From Thermincola carboxydiphila (GTDB lineage Bacteria > Bacillota > Thermincolia > Thermincolales > UBA2595): 52,347 nucleotides of DNA. Positions 1-47,649 of this stretch are shown in pieces. How positions within the stretch are numbered: the first letter of the stretch is position 1; each line of letters starts with the position of its first letter. Location of the stretch: NCBI GenBank assembly GCA_016841045.1, contig JAENZX010000002.1, positions 158,965 through 211,311 on the forward strand, given 5' to 3'. The translations under genes were made by a program, and so were the position numbers. The notes beneath the pieces were generated by a model. The model was not told the origin of the DNA. It saw nothing but the letters and a program-made list of their open reading frames with translations, and ran no database searches.

Positions 1-2
1 GA

Positions 3-2207
3 CCCGATGGAAGACCAGGAGGTCCAAGGCCGGAAGGCAGACCGATGGGCCAGAGACCTGATGGAAGACCGGGTGGTCCAAGACCCGATGGAAGACCGGG
101 TGGTCCAAGACCCGATGGAAGACCGGGTGGTCCAAGACCTGATGGAAGACCGGGTGGTCCAAGACCTGATGGAAGACCGGGTGGTCCAAGACCCGATGGA
201 AGACCAGGTGGTCAAAGACCCGATGGAAGACCGATGGGTCAGAGACCTGACCAAAGACCTGGCGCTCCAAGGCCAGATGGAAGGCCAGGCGGCCCAAGAG
301 CAGAAGGCAGGCCAACAGGTCAGAGACAGGATCAAAGGGCTGGCGAAAAGCGAGGCGGTAGACCTGGTGATAGAAGACAGCAGGATTTCAGGAAGCAGGG
401 TGCCCAACAGCCGGCTAAACAGGCGCCGGTAGTTAAAAAAGAGGAACCTAAAAACCTAAAGCCTATTGTTATCGGTGAAAGTGTTACTGTGCAGGATTTG
501 GCTGCCAAATTAGCTAAGACTGCCGCTGATGTTATAAAGAAACTGATGATGTCTTTTGGCGTTATGGCAACGATTAATCAGGAAATTGACTCTGATACTG
601 CAACACTTATTGCTGCCGAGTATGGTCGCGAGGTTCAGGTAGAGATCGAGGTAGATGAAACAATTGTTGAAGAAGTGGAAGACAAGCCGGAAGACCTGGT
701 TCCCCGCCCCAGTGTTGTCACTGTTATGGGACACGTTGACCATGGAAAAACATCACTTCTTGATGCAATCCGGGAGGCTAATGTAACAGCAAGTGAGGCA
801 GGCGGGATTACCCAGCATATAGGCGCTTATCAGGTAGTACATAACGGCAAGAAGATTACGTTCCTAGATACCCCTGGTCATGAGGCTTTTACTGCCATGA
901 GGGCCAGAGGAGCTCAGGCAACTGACGTGGCAATCATAGTGGTAGCTGCGGATGATGGGATTATGCCTCAGACAGTAGAGGCAATCAATCACTCTAAGGC
1001 TGCAGAGGTTCCCATAATCATTGCTGTTAACAAAATGGATAAACCGGGAGCAAATCCGGACAAAGTTAAGCAGGAACTCACAGAATATGGCCTAGTGCCA
1101 GAGGAGTGGGGCGGGGATACTATCACTGTTCCTGTATCCGCCAAGACCCAGCAGGGAATTGAAGATCTGCTGGAGATGATTCTGCTGGTTGCTGAGATGC
1201 AGGACCTGAAGGCTAACCCCAAAAGGCTGGCCAGAGGAACAGTCATTGAGGCTGAACTTGATAAAGGGCGTGGACCTGTTGCGACAGTTCTTGTCCAAAC
1301 AGGAACCCTCCAAATTGGTGATTCAATTGTGGCAGGCCAGGCTAGCGGTAAGGTTCGGGCTATGGTTGACGACAAAGGACGTCGAGTTAAAAAGGCCGCT
1401 CCTTCAACTCCGGTCGAAGTACTTGGCTTATCAGATGTACCTTTGGCAGGAGATACCTTTAACGCGGTTCCGGATGACAAGACAGCTAAAGCTATTGCCT
1501 CCAAGCGAATCAGTAAAAAGAGGGAAGAAGAATTTAAAGCTACGGCCAAAGTTTCTTTGGAGGATTTGTTTAAGCAGATTAAGGAAGGTCAGGTAAAAGA
1601 CCTTAATATAATTATCAAGGCAGACGTACAGGGCTCTATCGAGGCTCTCAAGCAGTCACTTAATAAACTGTCAAATGAAGAGGTTAGGGTAAATCCTATA
1701 CACGGTGGAGTTGGAGGTATCACTGAAACTGATGTTATGCTTGCTTCTGCTTCAAATGCCATTATTATCGGGTTTAACGTCCGCCCGGATGCTAACGCCC
1801 GTAAGGCTGCCGAAAAGGAAAAAGTTGATATCAGGCTTTACAGGGTGATTTATAACGCTATTGAGGATGTTAAGTCTGCCATGGCGGGTATGCTGGATCC
1901 GGAGTTTAAAGAAGCTGTCATAGGGCGGTTGGAAGTACGGCAAACCTTTAAGGTGTCTAAAATTGGCACAATCGCGGGATGCTATGTAACAGAAGGCAAA
2001 ATCACCAAAAACTCCGAAGTGCGTGTAATCAGAGACGGGATTGTTGTTTTTGAGGGCAAGCTTGATTCCCTGAAGAGATTTAAGGATGATGTCAAAGAAG
2101 TAGTCGAAGGCTACGAATGCGGTGTAACGATTGAGAAATTTAATGATGTCGTTGAAGGAGATATAATTGAAGCATTTGTTATGGAAGAAGTAAAAAGGCA
2201 ATTATAA
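3..2207 (+). CDS. infB: Translation initiation factor IF-2 (5' end outside window)
   Basis: IF-2 is the GTPase that places initiator fMet-tRNA on the 30S subunit and promotes 50S joining. The frame is open to the left edge, so the true start lies upstream; 734 residues are visible. A Pro/Arg/Gly-rich linker of 9-residue repeats (RPDGRPGGP type, 27 bp per unit) spans about nt 3-330. An IF2_N domain follows at about nt 450-610. The G domain shows G1 GHVDHGKT (about nt 728), G3 DTPGHE (about nt 868) and G4 NKMD (about nt 1030), with an SAK G5 near nt 1138. The beta-barrel and C-terminal fMet-tRNA binding domains complete the protein to EEVKRQL. It heads the rbfA-nrnA-truB-ribF run, the usual Firmicute order. 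The assignment is secure; only the N-terminus is missing. Confidence 0.98.
45..245 (+). repeat. 27-bp tandem repeats encoding the IF-2 linker
   Basis: About six near-identical 27-bp units (period gacccgatggaagaccgggt plus ggtccaa) encode RPDGRPGGP in the infB frame. Because the unit is a multiple of three, a second frame also stays open and reads MEDRVVQDP repeats. Copy number could vary by slippage. The repeats lie in the disordered linker before the IF2_N domain. Confidence 0.9.
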
Positions 2208-31137: not shown

Positions 31138-31260
31138 GGGAGGGGATGGGACATTTCCTCCACGGCGGCAACACCTCAGCTCGTTACCGGAACCCGTATA
31201 CGCGGGTCTCCGACGAGCGGATGGCAGACTCGCCGTTCCGGAAAAATCCCATCCCCTCCC
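31138..31260. repeat. Palindromic structured element, copy 2
   Basis: A 123-bp unit with a perfect 14-bp terminal inverted repeat (GGGAGGGGATGGGA / TCCCATCCCCTCCC). The core ACGGCGGCAACACCTCAGCT and GGATGGCAGACTCGCCG can pair through CGGCG/CGCCG. An inner stem GCTCGT / ACGAGC is present, closed by a CCCG/CGGG hairpin. It is the first of three tandem copies. Confidence 0.9.
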
Positions 31261-31352
31261 TAGACGAATTGCAATAAAAGATGTACCCCGGGGGAGAAAA
31301 AAGCCGGAAGCAGGCGGCTGGGGAATCTGGGGCGTGGGAAAGAAATATAAGC

Positions 31353-31464
31353 GGGATGGGATGTTTTCCACACGGCGGCAACACCTCAGCTTGTTACCGA
31401 ATCGCTACGCTCTTCGACAAGCGGATGGCAGACTCGCCGCTTAGGAAAAATCCCATCCCCTCCC
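31353..31464. repeat. Palindromic structured element, copy 3
   Basis: A 112-bp unit bounded by GGGATGGGA / TCCCATCCC. The inner stem is GCTTGT / ACAAGC, whereas copy 2 has GCTCGT / ACGAGC, so both sides changed together. The core motifs match copy 2. Confidence 0.9.
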
Positions 31465-31554
31465 TAGACGATATGCGATAAAAGATGTACCCCGGGGGAG
31501 GAAAAAGCCGCAAGCAGGCGGCTGGGGAATCTGGGGCGTGGGAAAGAAATATAA

Positions 31555-31670
31555 GAGGGGATGGGATGTTTTCCACACGGCGGCAACACCTCAGCTTGTT
31601 ACCGAATCGCTATCGCTCTTCGACAAGCGGATGGCAGACTCGCCGTTTAGGAAAAATCCCATCCCCTCCC
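31555..31670. repeat. Palindromic structured element, copy 4
   Basis: A 116-bp unit bounded by GAGGGGATGGGA / TCCCATCCCCTC. It is nearly identical to copy 3, with GCTTGT / ACAAGC and an ATCGCTATCGCTC loop. Confidence 0.9.
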
Positions 31671-31873
31671 TAGACGAATTGCAATAAAAGATGTACCCCG
31701 GGGGAGAAAAAAGCCGCAAGCAGGCGGCTGGGGGGAATCCTGGGGCGTGGGGAAAGAAGTTTGAGTTGAAGTAGAGAAGAAAATTTTGGTGAAATTTGTG
31801 GTGATGGGAGGTATAATGGAAGTATTGGGAATTATTTCATTATTTGTTTATGAACATGTTCGTATTTAGAGTG

Positions 31874-33079
31874 TTAGGTGAAATCGGCAGGGAGGCTACG
31901 ATGTCAAAGAAAAAAAGATATCCAAAACATATGTATGTTGGGATTCTTAGGTGTCGATCTTATTATAATTGGCCTTTGGAAACAAGGGTTGTATCTGATA
32001 CTCTTTCAACAAAGCTTAATGGACAACAGATTTACTTTACACTGCAATTTGTCAGCTATAATTTTCTTCAAGGGAATAAGAAGGAAACGCCACAAACAGA
32101 ATTAGGGCCGATTATTGCAAGGGAAACAATTAGCCCCGATTTTTTTAGACTCGGGAGATACTTAGTAAAATCTCCGGAAGACATCTCCGAAATTTCTATA
32201 AAATATGGAGGTGCTTATCCTGGTGAAGTAGACATCCAATGCCACATCGGATGTGATACAGAATTACCTATTGAATCATTAGATTCAGAAGTATCACCTG
32301 TTCTCTACAGTTTACTAGGTACTCTATCAATCGCGACAAAGGATATTTTAATACCGGTTGCTCCTGCTCAATACAGTAAGATAAACCATGATGGAAAAAG
32401 AGAATTATTATGGAATGAACTTATGTATGTACATGAGCGCAAGACACATGAGGTTACTGTCCTGCGTGAATTGCTAGAGAAATATATTGACGTTAGGGCA
32501 ACGATGACTCCTGAAGAGGGACGAGCTTTTGATACTGCAGCGAGAAGGATAGTTAGCTCGAAAAACGAGAAGGATTTAATTGACCGATATTGTGATTTAT
32601 GGGAAGCCTGTGAATTTTTGTTGATAGGATTTAATGCAAAAGGCGATATTGTTTCAAGAATTGCACAAGCAATTGCATGTTATACCGGGGGAAATAAAGC
32701 AAAAATTGAGAATGGACTTGAGCTAAGAAACATTTACAAGGTTCGGAAAGAAGTTGTTCATGAAGCCTTACAAGATGAGCAACGGGTTGATACGTACATT
32801 AAACTGTTAGATGAAATAGCTAACCAACTGTTTAAGTGGCGACTGAAAATATCATACGCGAACTCTAAAATTATTGATCCATATCTCGACTAGGGTCCCC
32901 TGCCGACATCGCCTAACAACGCTGGAAACGGCTCCGCTGCGCTCCGACCCAACTTTTCCTGCCCGGATGCCGTTCTTTGGGGAGCCGTCTGTCACGGTTT
33001 TTGCGGCCGGGAGAATGGGTCTGGGGCAGCAAAAACCGCGCCAGCCGGTGGGCGGAAAAGTTCGTTTCCAGCAGATGCG
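31874..33079 (+). mobile_element. Putative solitary integron gene cassette
   Basis: The segment is bounded by two GTTRRRY cores, GTTAGGT (31873-31879) and GTTAGGC (33079-33085), where integron integrases cut after the G. It contains one gene with a 27-bp leader and an attC-like site starting 17 bp after its stop, which is the standard cassette plan. No integrase gene or second attC lies in the window. Cassettes lacking an integrase are known, but a single one in a Firmicute is uncommon. Confidence 0.65.
31901..32893 (+). CDS. HEPN-domain protein (ApeA-like C-terminus)
   Basis: This encodes 330 residues from ATG 31901, which has GGGAGG at 31889-31894; an open frame from 31844 adds 19 residues but crosses the cassette boundary. 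The N-terminal 200 residues are mixed strands and helices that I do not recognise. The C-terminal third (about 220-315) resembles an Apea-like HEPN domain: DLWEACEFLLIGF, IENGLELRNIYKVRKEVVHEAL. The HEPN RNase motif Rx4-6H is seen as R282-KEVV-H287. HEPN proteins are often RNases in anti-phage or toxin systems, so a defence role is inferred. The gene is AT-rich next to GC-rich flanks. Confidence 0.75.
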   Translation: MSKKKRYPKHMYVGILRCRSYYNWPLETRVVSDTLSTKLNGQQIYFTLQFVSYNFLQGNKKETPQTELGPIIARETISPDFFRLGRYLVKSPEDISEISIKYGGAYPGEVDIQCHIGCDTELPIESLDSEVSPVLYSLLGTLSIATKDILIPVAPAQYSKINHDGKRELLWNELMYVHERKTHEVTVLRELLEKYIDVRATMTPEEGRAFDTAARRIVSSKNEKDLIDRYCDLWEACEFLLIGFNAKGDIVSRIAQAIACYTGGNKAKIENGLELRNIYKVRKEVVHEALQDEQRVDTYIKLLDEIANQLFKWRLKISYANSKIIDPYLD

Positions 33080-40442: not shown

Positions 40443-42233
40443 ATGCAAATTCATCAAGTTGCTTCACCGATAAAAAATTTAATAGATGCTGGTATGAACA
40501 TGAGGAAAGCCTTGGAGCTTCTTCAAAGTATGGATACTGAATTATTGCCTGTTATTGATAACGGAGAAATTAGCGGTATTATTACTATGCATATGGTAAT
40601 GAAACACATATTATTGAATCGGGAATGGGAACATACAACAGTTAAAGAGTTAGCAAGTAAAAATTATCTAATTGTTGACCCTTTTACGCCTATTGAGAAG
40701 ATAATTTATAGAGGTGAAAAATATATCATCCTTGCCAAGGACGGAAATGCTGCTGGTGTTGTTCATTTGAATGATACTTTTGTCAAAATGTATGAAAAAA
40801 TGGCTGAGGTCAACGGTGAACTTGAAGGGATAATTGAGAGCATGCATGACGGCATCGGAGTGGCTGATGGGGAAGGGCGGATAGTCCGGTTAAATAAAAG
40901 TTATGAAAGGATAACTGGCCTAAACAAAGAAGAGGCTGGACTGGGAAAGTTATTGACAGAAGTGGAGAAAGAAGGCGTAATTTCTCAGTCTGTTGCATTG
41001 CAGGTACTAAAAAAGAAACAACCTGTTACTATTTCCCAACGTATTAAAACCGGAATAGAGATATTGGCTACAGGAATTCCGGTTTTAAACGCTGAAGGTA
41101 AGATAACCAGAGTGATTGTTAATTTCCGGGATTTATCCGAATTAAATCGTCTAAGGGAGGAAATCAATAAGTCTAAGAACCTTTCGGCACGTTATCATGT
41201 GGAACTAGAAACTCTGCGTGCGCAGCTGCGCCGGACCAACTTAAGTGTCAAAAGCCCTGAAATGAGTAGAGTGTTTGAACTTTCTAATTTAATAGCCTCT
41301 GTGGATACAACGGTTCTTATCACGGGAGAATCTGGCGTTGGAAAAGAAGTTATTGCAAGATATATTCACAATATGAGTCACCGTAGTAATGGTCCATTTA
41401 TTCAGATTAACTGCGGGGCTATTCCTGATAATTTGCTGGAATCAGAATTATTTGGTTATGAAGGCGGGGCGTTCACCGGAGCAAGTAAGGACGGTAAGCC
41501 AGGATTATTTGAAGTTGCCAATAATGGCACTATATTCTTAGATGAAATTGCTGAAATGCCTCTTAATTTACAGGTTAAACTGCTATGTGCTTTACAGAAT
41601 CACGAAATTTGCAGGATCGGGAGCACGAAACCTATAAAACTAGATGTGCGAATTATAGCTGCGACTAATAAGAATATTGAAATATTAATGAAACAGGGGA
41701 GGTTCAGAGAAGACCTTTTCTACAGGTTAAACGTTGTTCCTGTAAAAATTCCCCCCTTAAGAGAGCGTATTGAAGATATTTTACCCTTATCCATTGAATT
41801 TTTAACAAAATTTAACGAAAAATATTCCCGTAAGAAAAGATTTGACTTAAACGTCGTGCAAGCTTTAGAGAACTATTCCTGGCCAGGAAACATAAGGCAA
41901 TTGGAAAATCTAATCGAAAGCTTGGTAATAACAACTCAAGAGGATTTAATAAAACCGCAGCATATTGCCAATTATTTAAAAATTCCCACTGGAAGTCAGG
42001 ATGTAGAGCGCGAAGATATAATTATCAATGATATTATTCCTTTGAAAAGTGCATTATCAATAGTGGAAAAGGAACTGGTAAAAAGGGCGCTGAAAATACA
42101 TGGAACTACGAGAAAAGCGGCAAGCGTGTTAGGAGTGGGCCATTCCAGCATAATCAGAAAAGTTGAAAAATACAAATTAGCACAAGAGTTAGTAAAATAC
42201 CATCCTCGTAAAATAGATGATAAAGTTGAATAA
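40443..42233 (+). CDS. Sigma-54-dependent activator with CBS and PAS domains
   Basis: This 596-residue enhancer-binding protein controls sigma-54 promoters. A CBS pair (about 1-115) comes first, then PAS (about 125-235), then the AAA+ domain (about 265-500) with Walker A GESGVGKE (residue 295) and the sigma-54 contact loop GAFTGA (residue 342). A Fis-type HTH (TTRKAASVLGVGHSSIIRKVEKY, about 554-576) ends it. CBS domains can bind adenosyl ligands and PAS may bind aromatic or other small molecules; the signal is unknown. Three sigma-54-like promoters lie just downstream, so the TRAP operon is the probable target. GGGGGAG precedes ATG 40443. Confidence 0.95.
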   Translation: MQIHQVASPIKNLIDAGMNMRKALELLQSMDTELLPVIDNGEISGIITMHMVMKHILLNREWEHTTVKELASKNYLIVDPFTPIEKIIYRGEKYIILAKDGNAAGVVHLNDTFVKMYEKMAEVNGELEGIIESMHDGIGVADGEGRIVRLNKSYERITGLNKEEAGLGKLLTEVEKEGVISQSVALQVLKKKQPVTISQRIKTGIEILATGIPVLNAEGKITRVIVNFRDLSELNRLREEINKSKNLSARYHVELETLRAQLRRTNLSVKSPEMSRVFELSNLIASVDTTVLITGESGVGKEVIARYIHNMSHRSNGPFIQINCGAIPDNLLESELFGYEGGAFTGASKDGKPGLFEVANNGTIFLDEIAEMPLNLQVKLLCALQNHEICRIGSTKPIKLDVRIIAATNKNIEILMKQGRFREDLFYRLNVVPVKIPPLRERIEDILPLSIEFLTKFNEKYSRKKRFDLNVVQALENYSWPGNIRQLENLIESLVITTQEDLIKPQHIANYLKIPTGSQDVEREDIIINDIIPLKSALSIVEKELVKRALKIHGTTRKAASVLGVGHSSIIRKVEKYKLAQELVKYHPRKIDDKVE

Positions 42234-42294: not shown

Positions 42295-42349
42295 AAAATG
42301 GGAGTTGCGCAAAGACTTAAAAAAGTAGCTTTGCGTAACTCCCATTTTA
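42295..42349 (+). terminator. Long hairpin terminator after the activator gene
   Basis: ATGGGAGTTGCGCAAAG pairs with CTTTGCGTAACTCCCAT with one mismatch, flanked by A- and T-runs. It separates the regulator transcript from the promoter array. Confidence 0.8.
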
Positions 42350-42388
42350 CTTATATGTCAGCATTTTGTTTACTTATGAAACTACCTT

Positions 42389-42415
42389 TTGGTTGTCTGG
42401 TGCATAACCGGTCCA
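42389..42415. promoter_or_regulatory. Upstream activator site 1 (degenerate)
   Basis: TGGTGCATAACCGGTCC resembles the left arm of the perfect palindrome at 42639. It is about 125 bp upstream of sigma-54 promoter 1. The right arm is mostly lost. Confidence 0.4.
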
Positions 42416-42511
42416 ATACAATCATTATTTTCCCCTAAAACCGGTACAACCGATTAAAGTTTTATTTTGCCATTTAACCCCCGAAAATGCTGTTTGACGA
42501 AAAATATTAGA

Positions 42512-42531
42512 TTTAGGCATAGCTTTTGCTT
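42512..42531 (+). promoter_or_regulatory. Sigma-54 promoter 1
   Basis: TTTAGGCATAGCTTTTGCTT: GG at 42516-42517, 10 bp, GC at 42528-42529, as in the consensus TGGCAC-N5-TTGCA. Confidence 0.65.
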
Positions 42532-42638
42532 TACAAATAAAGTTTTCTTTACAGCAACGGTAAAGTTGCAGACGTAATGAGATAGATAAGTCAATGGTTA
42601 AATATCAAATATTATGGCATTTGACTAAATTGGTCACC

Positions 42639-42677
42639 TGGACCATAGTCGGTCCAAGGCGGACCGACTATGGTCCA
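42639..42677. promoter_or_regulatory. Upstream activator site 2 (perfect palindrome)
   Basis: TGGACCATAGTCGGTCC, five bases, then its exact reverse complement. Each 17-bp arm itself contains GGACC/GGTCC. Centre is about 138 bp upstream of promoter 2. Confidence 0.75.
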
Positions 42678-42778
42678 GAAAACGATAATTATTACTAATA
42701 TGAAAGCTGGATGCAACCAACTAAAGTTTTATTTGGCCGTATAACCCTCAAAAATGTTGTTTGACGAAAAAAATTAGA

Positions 42779-42798
42779 TTTAGGCATAGCTTTTGCTT
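42779..42798 (+). promoter_or_regulatory. Sigma-54 promoter 2
   Basis: The same TTAGGCATAGCTTTTGCTT sequence as promoter 1; GG at 42783-42784 and GC at 42795-42796. Confidence 0.65.
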
Positions 42799-42856
42799 TA
42801 TTAGGATATGAAACAAAGTTTGGCAAGTATTGAGGCATTTGACTAAACTTTTCATC

Positions 42857-42895
42857 TGGACCATGGGCGGTCCAAGATGGACCGACTGCGAACCA
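42857..42895. promoter_or_regulatory. Upstream activator site 3 (imperfect palindrome)
   Basis: TGGACCATGGGCGGTCC, five bases, GGACCGACTGCGAACCA. Centre is about 137 bp upstream of promoter 3. Confidence 0.65.
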
Positions 42896-42996
42896 AAAAA
42901 CAATAATTATTACTACCATGAAAACTGGATACAACCGACTAAAGTTTTATTTGGCCATATAACCCCCAAAAATGTTGTTTGACGAAAAATGTCGGA

Positions 42997-43016
42997 TTTA
43001 GGAATAACTTTTGCTT
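42997..43016 (+). promoter_or_regulatory. Sigma-54 promoter 3, nearest to the TRAP operon
   Basis: TTTAGGAATAACTTTTGCTT: GG at 43001-43002 and GC at 43013-43014. Predicted start is about 43026, giving a leader of about 235 nt before dctP. Confidence 0.65.
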
Positions 43017-43262
43017 TATAAAAGGTGTGACACAAAAGAAAGGGGGATTGTTTCATACAAAATAACCAGAGGTTTGAGCAATTTGACAAGTTCGAAAAAG
43101 AGGACCAATTTTATTCTGATTTGTGGGAGATGTTGGCTGAGAACTTAAACTGGAGGTGACAGATAAAAGATATTTTTTAATGCAACGGCTAAATGTCAAT
43201 AGCCAATTGGGAAAAATGAGGAAGTAAAATGTGCTTGAGTATATATACGAGGAGGATTCAAC

Positions 43263-44270
43263 ATGAATAAAATTATGAGAAAATTGTTGTTATCACTAAT
43301 AATTATTGCAATGATGCTATCATCTGCAGCGTGTAGTGGAAGTAATAAAACGGGGGCAGAAGGGGAAGCAAAATACACTTTTAAAATAGCCCACATTGCC
43401 CCTACAGCCCATTCCTTCAATGATGCTGCAGAAAAATTTAAGGAAGAATTAGAAGCGCGTTCAGGTGGAAGAATGACTGCACAAGTTTACCCAGCTGGCC
43501 AATTAGGTAATGAAGCAGATATGGTACAGCAGATTCAATCAGGTTCTGTTGACTTTGGAATTATTACCGCAGCATATCTGAGCTCCCGTGCTCCAGCATT
43601 TAGTGCGTGGTTTGCTCCCTATCTATTTGATGACTATAATGATGTAAATGAAGCCCGAAAAGCAGATGTAGCCAAAAAAGTGTTAGCAACTTTAAATGAG
43701 CAAGGCATTACTGGATTGGATTACCATTTTTCTGGTCATCGTACAATGTTATTTAAGGATAAGAAAGCCATGTCACCAGAAGATATGAAAGGTTTAAAAC
43801 TTAGAGTAACACCAAGTCCTACTCTTCAAGATTGGTACAAGTCATTAGGTATTTCCCCGGAATCTCTTTCACTTCCTGATGTTTATCAAGCTGTACAAAC
43901 TGGTGTTATTGACGGGATGGATATGGATTTAGATGTTACAGTACAAAATAAGTATTACGAAGTTGTAAAATATGGCGCAGTCACTAATCATATGGTTTGG
44001 CCTGGAGTTGCAATCACCAACAAGTCAAAACTAGAAAAAATGCCGGCTAAAGACCAGGAGATTGTCTTAAGTGCAATTAGTGCTGCTGTTGAGTATGCTA
44101 ACAAGAAGCGTGCTGGTCAAGAGGGAGAGTTTAAGAAAATCTTAACGGATAATGGATTAGAGTTATATGAAATTGATAAGTCGGTGTTTAAGCAGCAAAT
44201 TGAAGAATTTGACAAAAAATATGGAGCAGTGGACCCGCTTATTGATGAGTTTATCAAGGCTTTTAGGTAA
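43263..44270 (+). CDS. TRAP transporter solute-binding lipoprotein (DctP family)
   Basis: This 335-residue protein captures a substrate outside the cell for the TRAP carrier. A lipoprotein signal (MMLSSAACSG, Cys about residue 23) precedes the DctP domain. Family features are YTFKIAHIAPTAHSFNDAAEKFKEELEARSGGRM, YPAGQLGNEADMVQQIQSGSVDFGI, and LKLRVTPSPT with the carboxylate-binding Arg. The ligand is an organic acid; an aromatic acid is likely given the ligase downstream. AGGAGG precedes ATG 43263. Its stop overlaps the first codon of the next gene. Confidence 0.95.
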   Translation: MNKIMRKLLLSLIIIAMMLSSAACSGSNKTGAEGEAKYTFKIAHIAPTAHSFNDAAEKFKEELEARSGGRMTAQVYPAGQLGNEADMVQQIQSGSVDFGIITAAYLSSRAPAFSAWFAPYLFDDYNDVNEARKADVAKKVLATLNEQGITGLDYHFSGHRTMLFKDKKAMSPEDMKGLKLRVTPSPTLQDWYKSLGISPESLSLPDVYQAVQTGVIDGMDMDLDVTVQNKYYEVVKYGAVTNHMVWPGVAITNKSKLEKMPAKDQEIVLSAISAAVEYANKKRAGQEGEFKKILTDNGLELYEIDKSVFKQQIEEFDKKYGAVDPLIDEFIKAFR

Positions 44271-44770
44271 TGAAAAAAGGGGATGAACTTGTGCACTTTG
44301 TAAGTAATTTAATTGAACGTGTAGAAAAGACTGTATCTATGATTCTTATGTTTTGTATGGCAGTTATCATAATTGGTGCCGTGTTATTTCGTTACTTTTT
44401 AAATAACCCTGTATTTTGGGCCGGGGAAGTATCTATCTTTCTAATGATTTGGATTTCGTTTTTAGGGGGAAGCTTGGGACTTAAGAATAAGTCCCAAGCT
44501 GCCGTCTCAATTTTAGTTGAAAGATTACCACAAGCATTACAAAAGACCCTTAACATTATTGTACATATATTAATGCTTGGTTTTTTATTAGTACTAATTT
44601 ATTACAGCTACCAGTGGCTATTATCAAGTAATGTAGCTTTTCAAAAGTCAACTGCGTTAAGAATGCCTATGTGGATTGCTTATATTTCAGTTCCTATTGG
44701 CTTAACTTTTTCCTTTATTCATCTAATATCGAACCTAATAGGCATAGTGCAGGGGGGGGAAGCTGAATGA
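44270..44770 (+). CDS. TRAP transporter small membrane subunit (DctQ family)
   Basis: This 166-residue protein has four membrane helices, with the family pattern FLNNPVFWAGEVSIFLMIWISFLGGSLGLK. The ATG at 44270 overlaps the dctP stop by 1 bp. GTG 44291, after AAAAGGGG, is an alternative that would give a more usual N-terminus. Its 3' end overlaps dctM by 4 bp. It partners the large subunit in sodium-coupled uptake. Confidence 0.93.
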   Translation: MKKGDELVHFVSNLIERVEKTVSMILMFCMAVIIIGAVLFRYFLNNPVFWAGEVSIFLMIWISFLGGSLGLKNKSQAAVSILVERLPQALQKTLNIIVHILMLGFLLVLIYYSYQWLLSSNVAFQKSTALRMPMWIAYISVPIGLTFSFIHLISNLIGIVQGGEAE

Positions 44771-46047
44771 TAATAGCTGTTCTATTGTTCTTTCTTTTAT
44801 TTTTGTTTATTGGTGTTCCTATTTCCTTAGTTCTTGCCATGACAACAATATTGTATATCATTCTTACTGGGAATCTAAGTTTATTAGAATCTACTCCCCA
44901 AAGGTTATTTTCAGGCTTAGATAATTTTGGACTGTTAGCCATACCGTTATTTATGCTGGCTGGAGAGTTGATGAATGCTGGAGGAATAACAACCCGCTTA
45001 GTTAATCTTGCGAAGGTATTGCTTGGTTTTGTAAGAGGCGGGCTTGCCTATGTTACAGTTTTAGCAAACATGTTACTTGCTTCAATATTAGGATCTGCCA
45101 CTGCACAAGCAGCAATGATGAGTAAAGTATTAATTCCTGAGATGGAGAGAGAAGGCTATCCTAGAGAATTTGCTGCTGCATTAACTCTTGCTTCATCTGT
45201 TGTTGCACCAATAATTCCACCCAGCATGTTATTTATTATTTATGGTACACTATCAGGTGCTTCTATTGGTAGTCTTTTCCTGGCGGGTGTAATCCCAGGT
45301 CTACTGTTGGGAGCAGGTTTTATTATGTTGATTGTTCTTCTTGGCTATAAATACAACTATCCTAAGAGTGAACCAGCAAAGGTTTCTGAAATGTTAATAG
45401 CAGTTGTAAAAGTATTACCTGCTTTGTTTGTACCTTTTATAATTATCTGGGGAATTCTGAGTGGGGCATTTACACCTACTGAATCAGCTGCAGTTGCATG
45501 TTTCATTGCATTTATTGTAGGGGTGTTCTTGTATAAAGAGCTTACTGTTAAAAAAATGCCAGATATTTTAATAAATACAGTAGTTAATACAGCTACAGTA
45601 ACTTTTCTAATTGCTACAGCAAATATCTTTGGGTGGTTAATTGCATTTGAACAAATTCCACAGATGTTAGCACAATCTATGTTATCGTTGTCAGATAATC
45701 CTTTGGTATTTTTACTATTAGCTAATTTATTCTTCTTATTAATAGGATTAGTAATCGATGGAATTGCTGCTATGATTATTGTTGTTCCTGTAATGATGCC
45801 CCTTTTAGGAATTTATAATATTGATCCAATACACTTTGGAGTTATTATGAGCATAAATTTAACTCTTGGTTTATTAACTCCACCTGTCGGAATTGGATTA
45901 TTTGTGGTTTCCTCTATTGGTAAAGTTAAATTTGAAAAACTTGTAAAAAGTATTACTCCCTTTCTCATAGTTTCACTAATATGTCTTTTAATTATTACAT
46001 ACTGGTCTGACGCAGTATTGTGGATTCCTCGTCAATTTGGATTATAA
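44767..46047 (+). CDS. TRAP transporter large permease (DctM family)
   Basis: This 426-residue carrier has about 12 membrane helices. Signatures include IPLFMLAGELMNAGGITTRLV, GSATAQAAMMSKVLIPEM, PIIPPSMLFIIYG and the final LTPPVGIGLFVVSSIGKV. It overlaps dctQ by 4 bp (ATGA) with GGGGGGAAG upstream. It forms the ion-coupled channel for the DctP-bound substrate. Confidence 0.96.
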   Translation: MIIAVLLFFLLFLFIGVPISLVLAMTTILYIILTGNLSLLESTPQRLFSGLDNFGLLAIPLFMLAGELMNAGGITTRLVNLAKVLLGFVRGGLAYVTVLANMLLASILGSATAQAAMMSKVLIPEMEREGYPREFAAALTLASSVVAPIIPPSMLFIIYGTLSGASIGSLFLAGVIPGLLLGAGFIMLIVLLGYKYNYPKSEPAKVSEMLIAVVKVLPALFVPFIIIWGILSGAFTPTESAAVACFIAFIVGVFLYKELTVKKMPDILINTVVNTATVTFLIATANIFGWLIAFEQIPQMLAQSMLSLSDNPLVFLLLANLFFLLIGLVIDGIAAMIIVVPVMMPLLGIYNIDPIHFGVIMSINLTLGLLTPPVGIGLFVVSSIGKVKFEKLVKSITPFLIVSLICLLIITYWSDAVLWIPRQFGL

Positions 46048-46080
46048 ATAGTTAAGATACATAACATGGAGGTGATACTC

Positions 46081-47649
46081 TTGGAAATTCAAATCCCAGA
46101 AAAATTTAATGCAGCTAATTTTTTACTAGATAGGCATATAAAAGAAGGAAGAGGAGATAAAGTTGCAATAGTTTGCCAAGGGCAAAAGGTGACTTACGAA
46201 CAAGTTTTTCTAGAAGTTAATCGCCTGGGAAACGGCTTTCGAAGTTTGGGAGTAGAAATGGAAAACAGGGTGCTTTTACTCTCGCCCGATTTACCAGAGC
46301 TGATTTGTTCAATTTTAGCAGCAATGAAAATTGGTGCAGTGCCGGTAGTTACTAATACTATGCTGCCTGCCGCTGATATAGCGTATATCTTAAATGATTG
46401 CAGAGCAAAAGTAGCAGTTGTCCATCATTCCTTATTGCCCTTAGTAGAACAAGTGCAGGGAAGATTAGAATATCTAAAGCACCTGATCGTAATAGGTGAT
46501 TGTAAAAAAGGCCAGATTTCTTACCAAAAATTAGTAGAGGATTCTTCTGAAGAATTAAAGCCCGCTTTAACTTCAAAAGACGATTCAGCAGTGTGGCAGT
46601 ATAGCTCTGGTACTACAGGAACCCCCAAAGGGATAGTTCATATGCATAAAAGTATCTTTTATCACTTCCACAGCCATGCCCAAGGTATTTTAAATATAAC
46701 TCCTGATGATAAAGTATTTTCCATAGCCAAATTGTTTTTTGGTTATGGACAGGGAAATGGGTTATATTGGCCTTTTGGTGCTGGAGCTACTACTATTTTG
46801 CTTCCAGACAGACCAGAGCCCGAAAATGTAGCTGAGCTAGTAACAAGGGAACGTCCGACAGTTTACTGTGGGGTACCTACTTCCTATAACGCTATTTTAC
46901 AGCTGCCAAACTTAAAAGAGCGGTATGATTTCAGTTCTATTAGAATTTGTACTTCGGCTGGTGAAGCGCTCCCGGCTGCTATATACCAAAAATGGCTTGA
47001 AACATTCGGGGTAGAAATTATTGACGGTATTGGATCAACAGAATGCTTTCATGTCTTTATCTCCAATAGGCCAGGGCAGGTGGTATCAGGTTCAACTGGG
47101 CAGCCAATACCTGGGTTTGAAGCCAAATTAGTTGATGATCAAGGACAAGAAGTGCCTCCTGGAGAAATTGGAACCTTGTTAGTAAAAGGAGGCAGTGTAT
47201 CTGCCGGTTATTGGAATAAACATGAAATGACACAGCGCACATTTCTGGGCGAGTGGGTAAGAACAGGAGATAAATTTTATAAAGATGAAAATGGTTACTA
47301 TTGGTTTGCTGGACGTATGGATGATATGATAAAGGCGGGTGGCATTTGGGTTTCACCTATTGAAGTAGAAGGGATTCTAGTATCACATCCAGCAGTTCTA
47401 GAGTGTGGAGTAATTGGCGCTGAAGACAAAGATGGACTACTGAAACCAAAAGCGTTTGTCGTTTTAAAAGAAGGTAATAATCCTTCTGATGAGTTGACTA
47501 AAGAACTTCAAAAGTACGTTAAACAAAATGCCGCTCCTTTCAAATATCCCCGGTGGGTAGAGTATGCTGATGAATTACCCAAAACTCCAACAGGCAAATT
47601 ACAGCGCTTTAAACTCAGGGAACTTGACAGTAGTAACAAAGCTTGGTAG
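46081..47649 (+). CDS. Benzoate-CoA ligase family acyl-CoA synthetase
   Basis: This 522-residue AMP-forming ligase activates a carboxylic acid to its CoA thioester. The P-loop is SSGTTGTPKG (about residue 174), and GIGSTECFHVFISNRPG is close to the benzoate-CoA ligase signature. The WVRTGD hinge and the C-terminal catalytic Lys in PTGKLQRFK are present. I start at TTG 46081, 5 bp after GGAGGTGA; ATG 46066 overlaps that site. Similarity of the N-terminus (IPEKFNAANFLLDRH) to benzoate-CoA ligases suggests an aromatic substrate. It is the last gene of the sigma-54 operon; no ring-reductase genes follow. Confidence 0.92.
   Translation: MEIQIPEKFNAANFLLDRHIKEGRGDKVAIVCQGQKVTYEQVFLEVNRLGNGFRSLGVEMENRVLLLSPDLPELICSILAAMKIGAVPVVTNTMLPAADIAYILNDCRAKVAVVHHSLLPLVEQVQGRLEYLKHLIVIGDCKKGQISYQKLVEDSSEELKPALTSKDDSAVWQYSSGTTGTPKGIVHMHKSIFYHFHSHAQGILNITPDDKVFSIAKLFFGYGQGNGLYWPFGAGATTILLPDRPEPENVAELVTRERPTVYCGVPTSYNAILQLPNLKERYDFSSIRICTSAGEALPAAIYQKWLETFGVEIIDGIGSTECFHVFISNRPGQVVSGSTGQPIPGFEAKLVDDQGQEVPPGEIGTLLVKGGSVSAGYWNKHEMTQRTFLGEWVRTGDKFYKDENGYYWFAGRMDDMIKAGGIWVSPIEVEGILVSHPAVLECGVIGAEDKDGLLKPKAFVVLKEGNNPSDELTKELQKYVKQNAAPFKYPRWVEYADELPKTPTGKLQRFKLRELDSSNKAW

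Follow-up and report, generated by a model that had tools for sequence, protein, structure and literature searches.

The locus considered here, from Thermincola carboxydiphila, raises the question of how a TRAP transporter operon is controlled when the region in front of it holds three consecutive copies of what appears to be one sigma-54 control unit. Bacterial enhancers have usually been studied together with one promoter, and a natural triplicate of whole units is a ready-made system for asking whether promoters share enhancers, whether polymerase traffic from an upstream promoter interferes with the enhancer below it, and by what route an array of this kind originates and decays. The analysis covers a 52,347-nt stretch of contig JAENZX010000002.1 (hereafter the window), and the features under discussion are collected in Table 1. 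Overall, we find it probable that the operon is under sigma-54/activator control from the triplicated region, with the neighbouring CBS-PAS activator working on the dyads in it.

Table 1. Features of the control region and the adjoining genes (positions in the window).
Feature	Positions	Strand	Remarks
Sigma-54 activator, CBS - PAS - AAA+ (GAFTGA) - HTH_50	40443..42233	+	Pfam PF00571, PF00989, PF00158, PF18024
Strong hairpin and U run after activator gene, probable terminator	42295..42348	+	20-nt arms, 95% complementary
Dyad 1A, sole dyad of module 1	42398..42415	+	TGGTGC-N6-GGTCCA, 2 mismatches
P1, GG at 42516	42513..42532	+	TTAGGCATAGCTTTTGCTTT; GG-N10-GC; expected start near 42541
Module 2, repeat unit	42606..42801	+	85% identity with module 3 at an offset of 218
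Dyad 2A, exact	42639..42656	+	TGGACC-N6-GGTCCA, 0 mismatches
Dyad 2B, 21 bp from 2A	42660..42677	+	CGGACC-N6-GGTCCA, 1 mismatch
P2, same as P1 over 20 nt, GG at 42783	42780..42799	+	TTAGGCATAGCTTTTGCTTT; expected start near 42808
Module 3, repeat unit	42824..43019	+	Counterpart of 42606-42801 over 196 nt
Dyad 3A, exact	42857..42874	+	TGGACC-N6-GGTCCA, 0 mismatches
Dyad 3B, weakened	42878..42895	+	TGGACC-N6-GAACCA, 2 mismatches
P3, weakest, GG at 43001	42998..43017	+	TTAGGAATAACTTTTGCTTT; GG-N10-GC; expected start near 43026
dctP, TRAP solute-binding protein, first operon gene	43263..44270	+	PF03480, E=2.8e-68
dctQ and dctM, TRAP membrane subunits	44270..46047	+	PF04290, PF06808
Benzoate-CoA-ligase family protein	46066..47649	+	TIGR02262, 615 bits (cut-off 375)

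Direct reading of the intergenic stretch between the activator gene and dctP reveals three tandem copies of one segment. The preliminary description held that whole enhancer-promoter units are repeated here three times, and this is borne out, since the direct repeats, the dyads and the GG-N10-GC elements could all be located. In addition to the match between modules 2 and 3, positions 42420-42537 of module 1 align with 42687-42804 at 77% and with 42905-43022 at 81% identity. Each copy stops right after TTAGG(C/A)ATA(G/A)CTTTTGCTTT, and 3' of modules 2 and 3 the similarity ends, with 6/24 positions identical. The alignment shows 26 nt missing from module 1 at its enhancer end. Its identity with module 2 amounts to 79/90 positions in the promoter-proximal part versus 10/23 in the linker (p=2.4e-5), and this stronger conservation near the promoter argues that P1 is, or has in the past been, under selection; gene conversion may also have produced such a pattern. 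The hairpin behind the activator gene (-32.7 kcal/mol, z -8.9) probably ends the activator transcript and separates the activator gene from the transporter operon, which would therefore require a promoter of its own.

A whole-genome DNA search returned no further copy of the region, just weak short matches, and a mobile or dispersed repeat was ruled out by this absence of other genomic copies. The window contains other repeated sequences. At 31140-31758, in an intergenic position after an RNase J-like gene, there is an unrelated triple tandem repeat with a 204-bp unit and 90% matches, the units of which are bordered by inverted GATGGGAT/ATCCCATC sequences; it gave no match in Rfam. Positions 1-337 hold about 11 copies of a 27-bp tandem repeat (GACCCGATGGAAGACCGGGTGGTCCAA), beginning at the window edge. 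In the dctP leader, a stretch at 43075-43160, read by eye, has the protein-like sequence EQFDKFEKEDQFYSDLWEMLAENLNWR followed by a stop and lacks a clear start; it is possibly a gene remnant or a leader peptide.

The promoter of each module was recognised as a GG-N10-GC element with the transcript start expected 12 nt after GC. Compared with the -24/-12 consensus of Clostridiales, TTGGCATN5TTGCT (PMC6615313), P1 and P2 match at 11/12 positions and P3 at 10/12. A matrix built from 19 promoters beside homologous activators gave scores of 10.0 for P1 and P2 and 4.6 for P3, against 17-24 for the training set. The three promoters carry A at -26, where T is found in 19/19 of these strong promoters, which had themselves been selected by score, and P3 in addition lacks the C after GG. 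P1 and P2 are the top sigma-54 matches of the window bar one, but they are not strong matches. That best match, TGGCGCGGTTTTTGCTG at 33027 on the minus strand, has a score of 17.7, inside the training range. Allowing up to 2 mismatches to TGGCACN5TTGCW, 27 matches were found versus 25 expected, so that a bare -24/-12 element of such quality is not rare. The weight for the promoters comes from their location, their conservation in three copies and their context rather than from the bare -24/-12 match, and since the three are homologous copies they count as one independent observation. Sigma-54 itself (rpoN) is encoded in the genome (PF04552, 222 bits, G000:C26).

The enhancer of module 2 had been described as a perfect palindrome with 17-bp arms. 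The repeat is indeed perfect, with arms of 18 nt and a loop of 5 nt (42638-42655/42661-42678). No perfect inverted repeat in the window with a loop of up to 8 nt is longer, and the runner-up has 13-nt arms. A better reading, however, is a pair of neighbouring 18-bp dyads of the TyrR-box type, TGGACC-N6-GGTCCA, and the perfect inverted repeat follows from dyad 2B being the reverse complement of dyad 2A. Paired dyads are 21 bp apart centre to centre, which corresponds to two helical turns. All 5/5 dyads have the 6-N6-6 form and the G-N14-C core of the TyrR box, TGTAAA-N6-TTTACA, an 18-bp site with an invariant G-N14-C core (PMC4374768), while the half site is TGGACC and the TyrR half site TGTAAA is absent. 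Modules 1 and 3 had been called decayed, and it is true that module 1 lacks a second dyad and that dyad 3B is weakened, but the retained G-N14-C cores mean that these modules are weakened and not dead. The dyads are situated 110-136 bp upstream of the -24 elements, within the 100-250 bp taken for sites of an enhancer-binding protein; the distance to GG is 125 bp from the centre of the dyad pair in modules 2 and 3 and 110 bp from the single dyad of module 1. The enhancer of module 3 also sits 58-78 bp beyond the P2 start.

Within the genome, the exact dyad is specific to the region. In the 4.16-Mb genome, TGGACC-N6-GGTCCA without mismatch occurs in modules 2 and 3 only, and three sites with 1 mismatch were rejected as further targets, as they lie in or against coding sequence and have no well-placed good sigma-54 promoter. 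A double dyad with up to 3 mismatches was found in 6/398 genomes of the phylum including the host, and the other five are isolated, chance-like matches. Dyads of the form TGGAAC-N6-GTTCCA, close to the TGGACC type of the window, are seen near paralogous activators (G000:C35:14818-14835; L023). No IHF site above chance was found near the activator and module 1 (L008). By computation, enhancer 2 would fold into an 18-bp hairpin (-37.5 kcal/mol) in the RNA transcribed from P1.

The regulator encoded next to the region, a protein of 596 aa with the recognition helix GVGHSSIIRK, had been identified as a sigma-54 activator, which is confirmed by PF00158 (E=1.4e-69) and the GAFTGA motif in the translation; the HTH_50 domain PF18024 was found at E=7e-10. 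Its best NCBIfam family is PrdR (NF041552), with 439.7 bits against a cut-off of 795, and it is therefore not PrdR. At 20 homologous loci where the activator gene has a strong sigma-54 promoter beside it, inverted 6-bp arms with a 6-bp spacer upstream of the promoter numbered 19 versus 2.1 in shuffled sequences; odd spacers were near background, and other even spacers were also enriched because longer palindromes nest. Across homologous activator loci, the residue at the position of His in GVGHSS goes with the third base of the half site, His with TGG...CCA and Gln with TGA...TCA dyads. With one scoring rule, which required [TC]G and C[AG] as dyad ends, TGG dyads were found for His in 11/16 and for Gln in 2/39 loci of a first set, for His in 18/31 and for Gln in 2/23 of a second set (p=1.7e-4), and for His in 29/47 and for Gln in 4/62 over all 109 loci (p=3e-10), p values that are optimistic since the loci are mutually related. 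The second set comprised 59 further activator regions fetched after the pattern of His with TGG had been seen, and the rule was replicated in it for His; the converse is weaker, with TGA dyads at 16/62 Gln and 4/47 His loci. Examples are L009, L023, L057, L213 and L248 for His and L017, L063, L212 and L246 for Gln, and single cases combine Arg with TGC or TGT and Ala with TGT half sites. The activator in the window has His and adjoins TGG dyads, and we infer that it binds them, for which the covariation offers independent, though indirect, support. More generally, these comparisons indicate that base 3 of the half site can be predicted from this one helix residue in sigma-54 activators of the HTH_50 type, which aids in assigning activators to their targets from sequence.

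The operon that follows probably imports and activates an aromatic acid. The nearest relatives of the transporter in a DctM search, up to ~74% identical, are from Bacillaceae, where they sit within what we take to be catechol meta-cleavage operons. These neighbourhoods suggest that the TRAP substrate is an aromatic acid. The Bacillaceae loci have no sigma-54 activator and no such promoter, which suggests that sigma-54 control was acquired in the host lineage. An ortholog search of genome contigs with DctP gave no match. Only two relatives of the activator could be aligned across the CBS part as well, both in other gene neighbourhoods, and an ortholog of the entire control region was found in none of 398 genomes of the phylum, so that there is no phylogenetic footprint.

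From this we propose that the CBS-PAS activator would bind the TGGACC-N6-GGTCCA-type 18-bp dyads ~150 bp upstream of each start, in the complete modules as pairs two helical turns apart, on receiving a signal through its PAS/CBS part; the signal is probably some aromatic acid or a metabolite related to it. The bound activator would then loop to sigma-54 RNA polymerase at the -24/-12 element and open the promoter by ATP hydrolysis. The three copies probably arose through tandem duplication. Module 2 is probably the main unit because it combines the best enhancer with, together with module 1, the best promoter, and P1 is probably still in use because module 1 has kept the 90 bp nearest its promoter, in contrast to the diverged linker preceding them. 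For P3 weak activity is probable, and its enhancer would add activator sites near both P2 and P3. The number of active promoters among the three is close to an even bet. As polymerase from the upstream promoters would cross the downstream enhancers, simple addition is not the sole expectation for the output, for which the preliminary description had suggested a graded or cumulative form. The promoters may add up, share enhancers or interfere with one another. It is tempting to speculate that all three promoters and five dyads act jointly, with polymerase from P1 and P2 evicting activator downstream and so shaping the response. We rate this as clearly improbable; if true, the triplication would set a threshold, a pulse or a bounded output, beyond mere added strength, and the region would be a naturally amplified enhancer-promoter array.

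Control by the activator might also be exerted with fewer working parts. It is conceivable, if rather unlikely, that P2 alone matters and the other two copies are decaying leftovers of a neutral tandem duplication. The missing dyad B of module 1, the -24 element of P3, which is the weakest, and the already imperfect consensus matches would fit such a history, and the unrelated 204-bp triple repeat in the same window indicates that duplications of this kind may be frequent. This account is opposed by the G-N14-C core kept in all five dyads, by the identity of P1 and P2 over 20 nt, and by the conservation of module 1 beside its promoter and not in the linker, which gene conversion could mimic. 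An alternative, likewise rather unlikely, is that the extra copies serve mainly as additional activator sites, so that a single promoter is served by an enhancer cluster. The -24 elements of the later modules are some 330-600 bp away from enhancers 1 and 2, and sigma-54-type enhancers are able to act over such distances. In Clostridiales a promoter generally has more than one enhancer site (32/39 groups, PMC6615313), and rhizobial dctA depends on tandem sites, one strong and one weak, going by the title of Ledebur and Nixon 1992 as cited in PMC11077940. Against a mere cluster of sites, every repeat ends just past the -12 element and retains its promoter, which would be needless for binding sites alone.

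Two further readings are less likely still. The dyads might serve a repressor or a sigma-A promoter as operators, with GG-N10-GC incidental, and a TTGACT-N17-CATAGT match overlapping dyad 2A speaks for this. The -10 element of this match is lost in module 3 (CATGGG), and matches of the sigma-70 type are about as numerous as in shuffled sequence (6 vs 4.2). Every copy retains GG-N10-GC, and a GAFTGA activator is encoded next to the region, which makes this reading very unlikely. The repeats might instead be tandem sigma-54-dependent small-RNA genes, with each promoter giving a short terminated RNA; such an arrangement seems to be present in another genome of the phylum (L156/L161, with four promoters and terminators between some of them). 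In the present region there is no terminator-like site after P1, P2 or P3 on the + strand, the sequence following the promoters is unconserved between copies and no Rfam family matched, and we rejected this reading as extremely improbable.

The preliminary description also regarded the arrangement as unusual. Among 118 homologous loci including the window, 66 have one strong sigma-54 promoter and none has two within the stretch scanned after the activator. A high-identity repeated segment of 60 nt was found at the window locus only; one further repeat is borderline (39/60) and likely due to chance. The claim thus stands for the duplicated cassette, present in 1/118 homologous loci, while tandem sigma-54 promoters as such have precedent. 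When 348 genomes were scanned for pairs of consensus promoters with a spacing of 188-218 nt, matches came from 3 genomes, one with four promoters, one with two and one in coding repeats. At L156/L161 (G152:C30, bases 1-600, minus strand), four consensus sigma-54 promoters follow each other 98-128 bp apart, with short stretches bearing CCTCC-type motifs and with terminators between some promoters. The array matched no Rfam family, and it has the look of small-RNA genes lined up in tandem under sigma-54 control. L157/L162 (G114:C162) has two consensus sigma-54 promoters. Tandem sigma-54 promoters are accordingly rare and not new, and what is unusual is that tandem enhancer-promoter units precede an mRNA. 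In open-licence papers we found no triplicated enhancer-promoter unit.

In some respects the region can be compared to known systems. Like L156/L161, which belongs to a Bacillota-like genome, it has several -24/-12 elements in succession, but the elements there are more closely spaced, partly divided by terminators and small-RNA-like, whereas here an mRNA leader contains copied enhancers. With DctB/DctD control of the dicarboxylate transporters dctA and dctPQM (PMC11077940, citing Ledebur and Nixon 1992), a sigma-54 activator with a transporter target and tandem strong/weak enhancer sites of ~18 bp (TGTGCGgaaatCCGCACA) are shared features; DctD is a two-component response regulator, in contrast to the CBS-PAS one-component activator here, and the triplicated promoter and the aromatic CoA ligase in the operon set the present system apart. 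With the TyrR boxes (PMC4374768) the region has in common the 18-bp dyad with its N6 spacer and G-N14-C core, strong/weak pairs and an HTH_50 (TyrR-like) domain, whereas TyrR mostly represses or works on sigma-70 promoters and its boxes are not amplified together with a promoter. The sigma-54 regulons of PrdR, AdhR and other activators in Clostridiales (PMC6615313, PMC7017808) resemble it in activator architecture, in enhancers of inverted half sites with several per target (three for AdhR, all needed; PMC7017808), in the type of -24/-12 consensus and in an activator gene that adjoins its target. The half sites there are TGT (TGT-N10-12-ACA-type) as opposed to TGG, and the promoter is described as single, whereas here it has been copied along with its enhancer.
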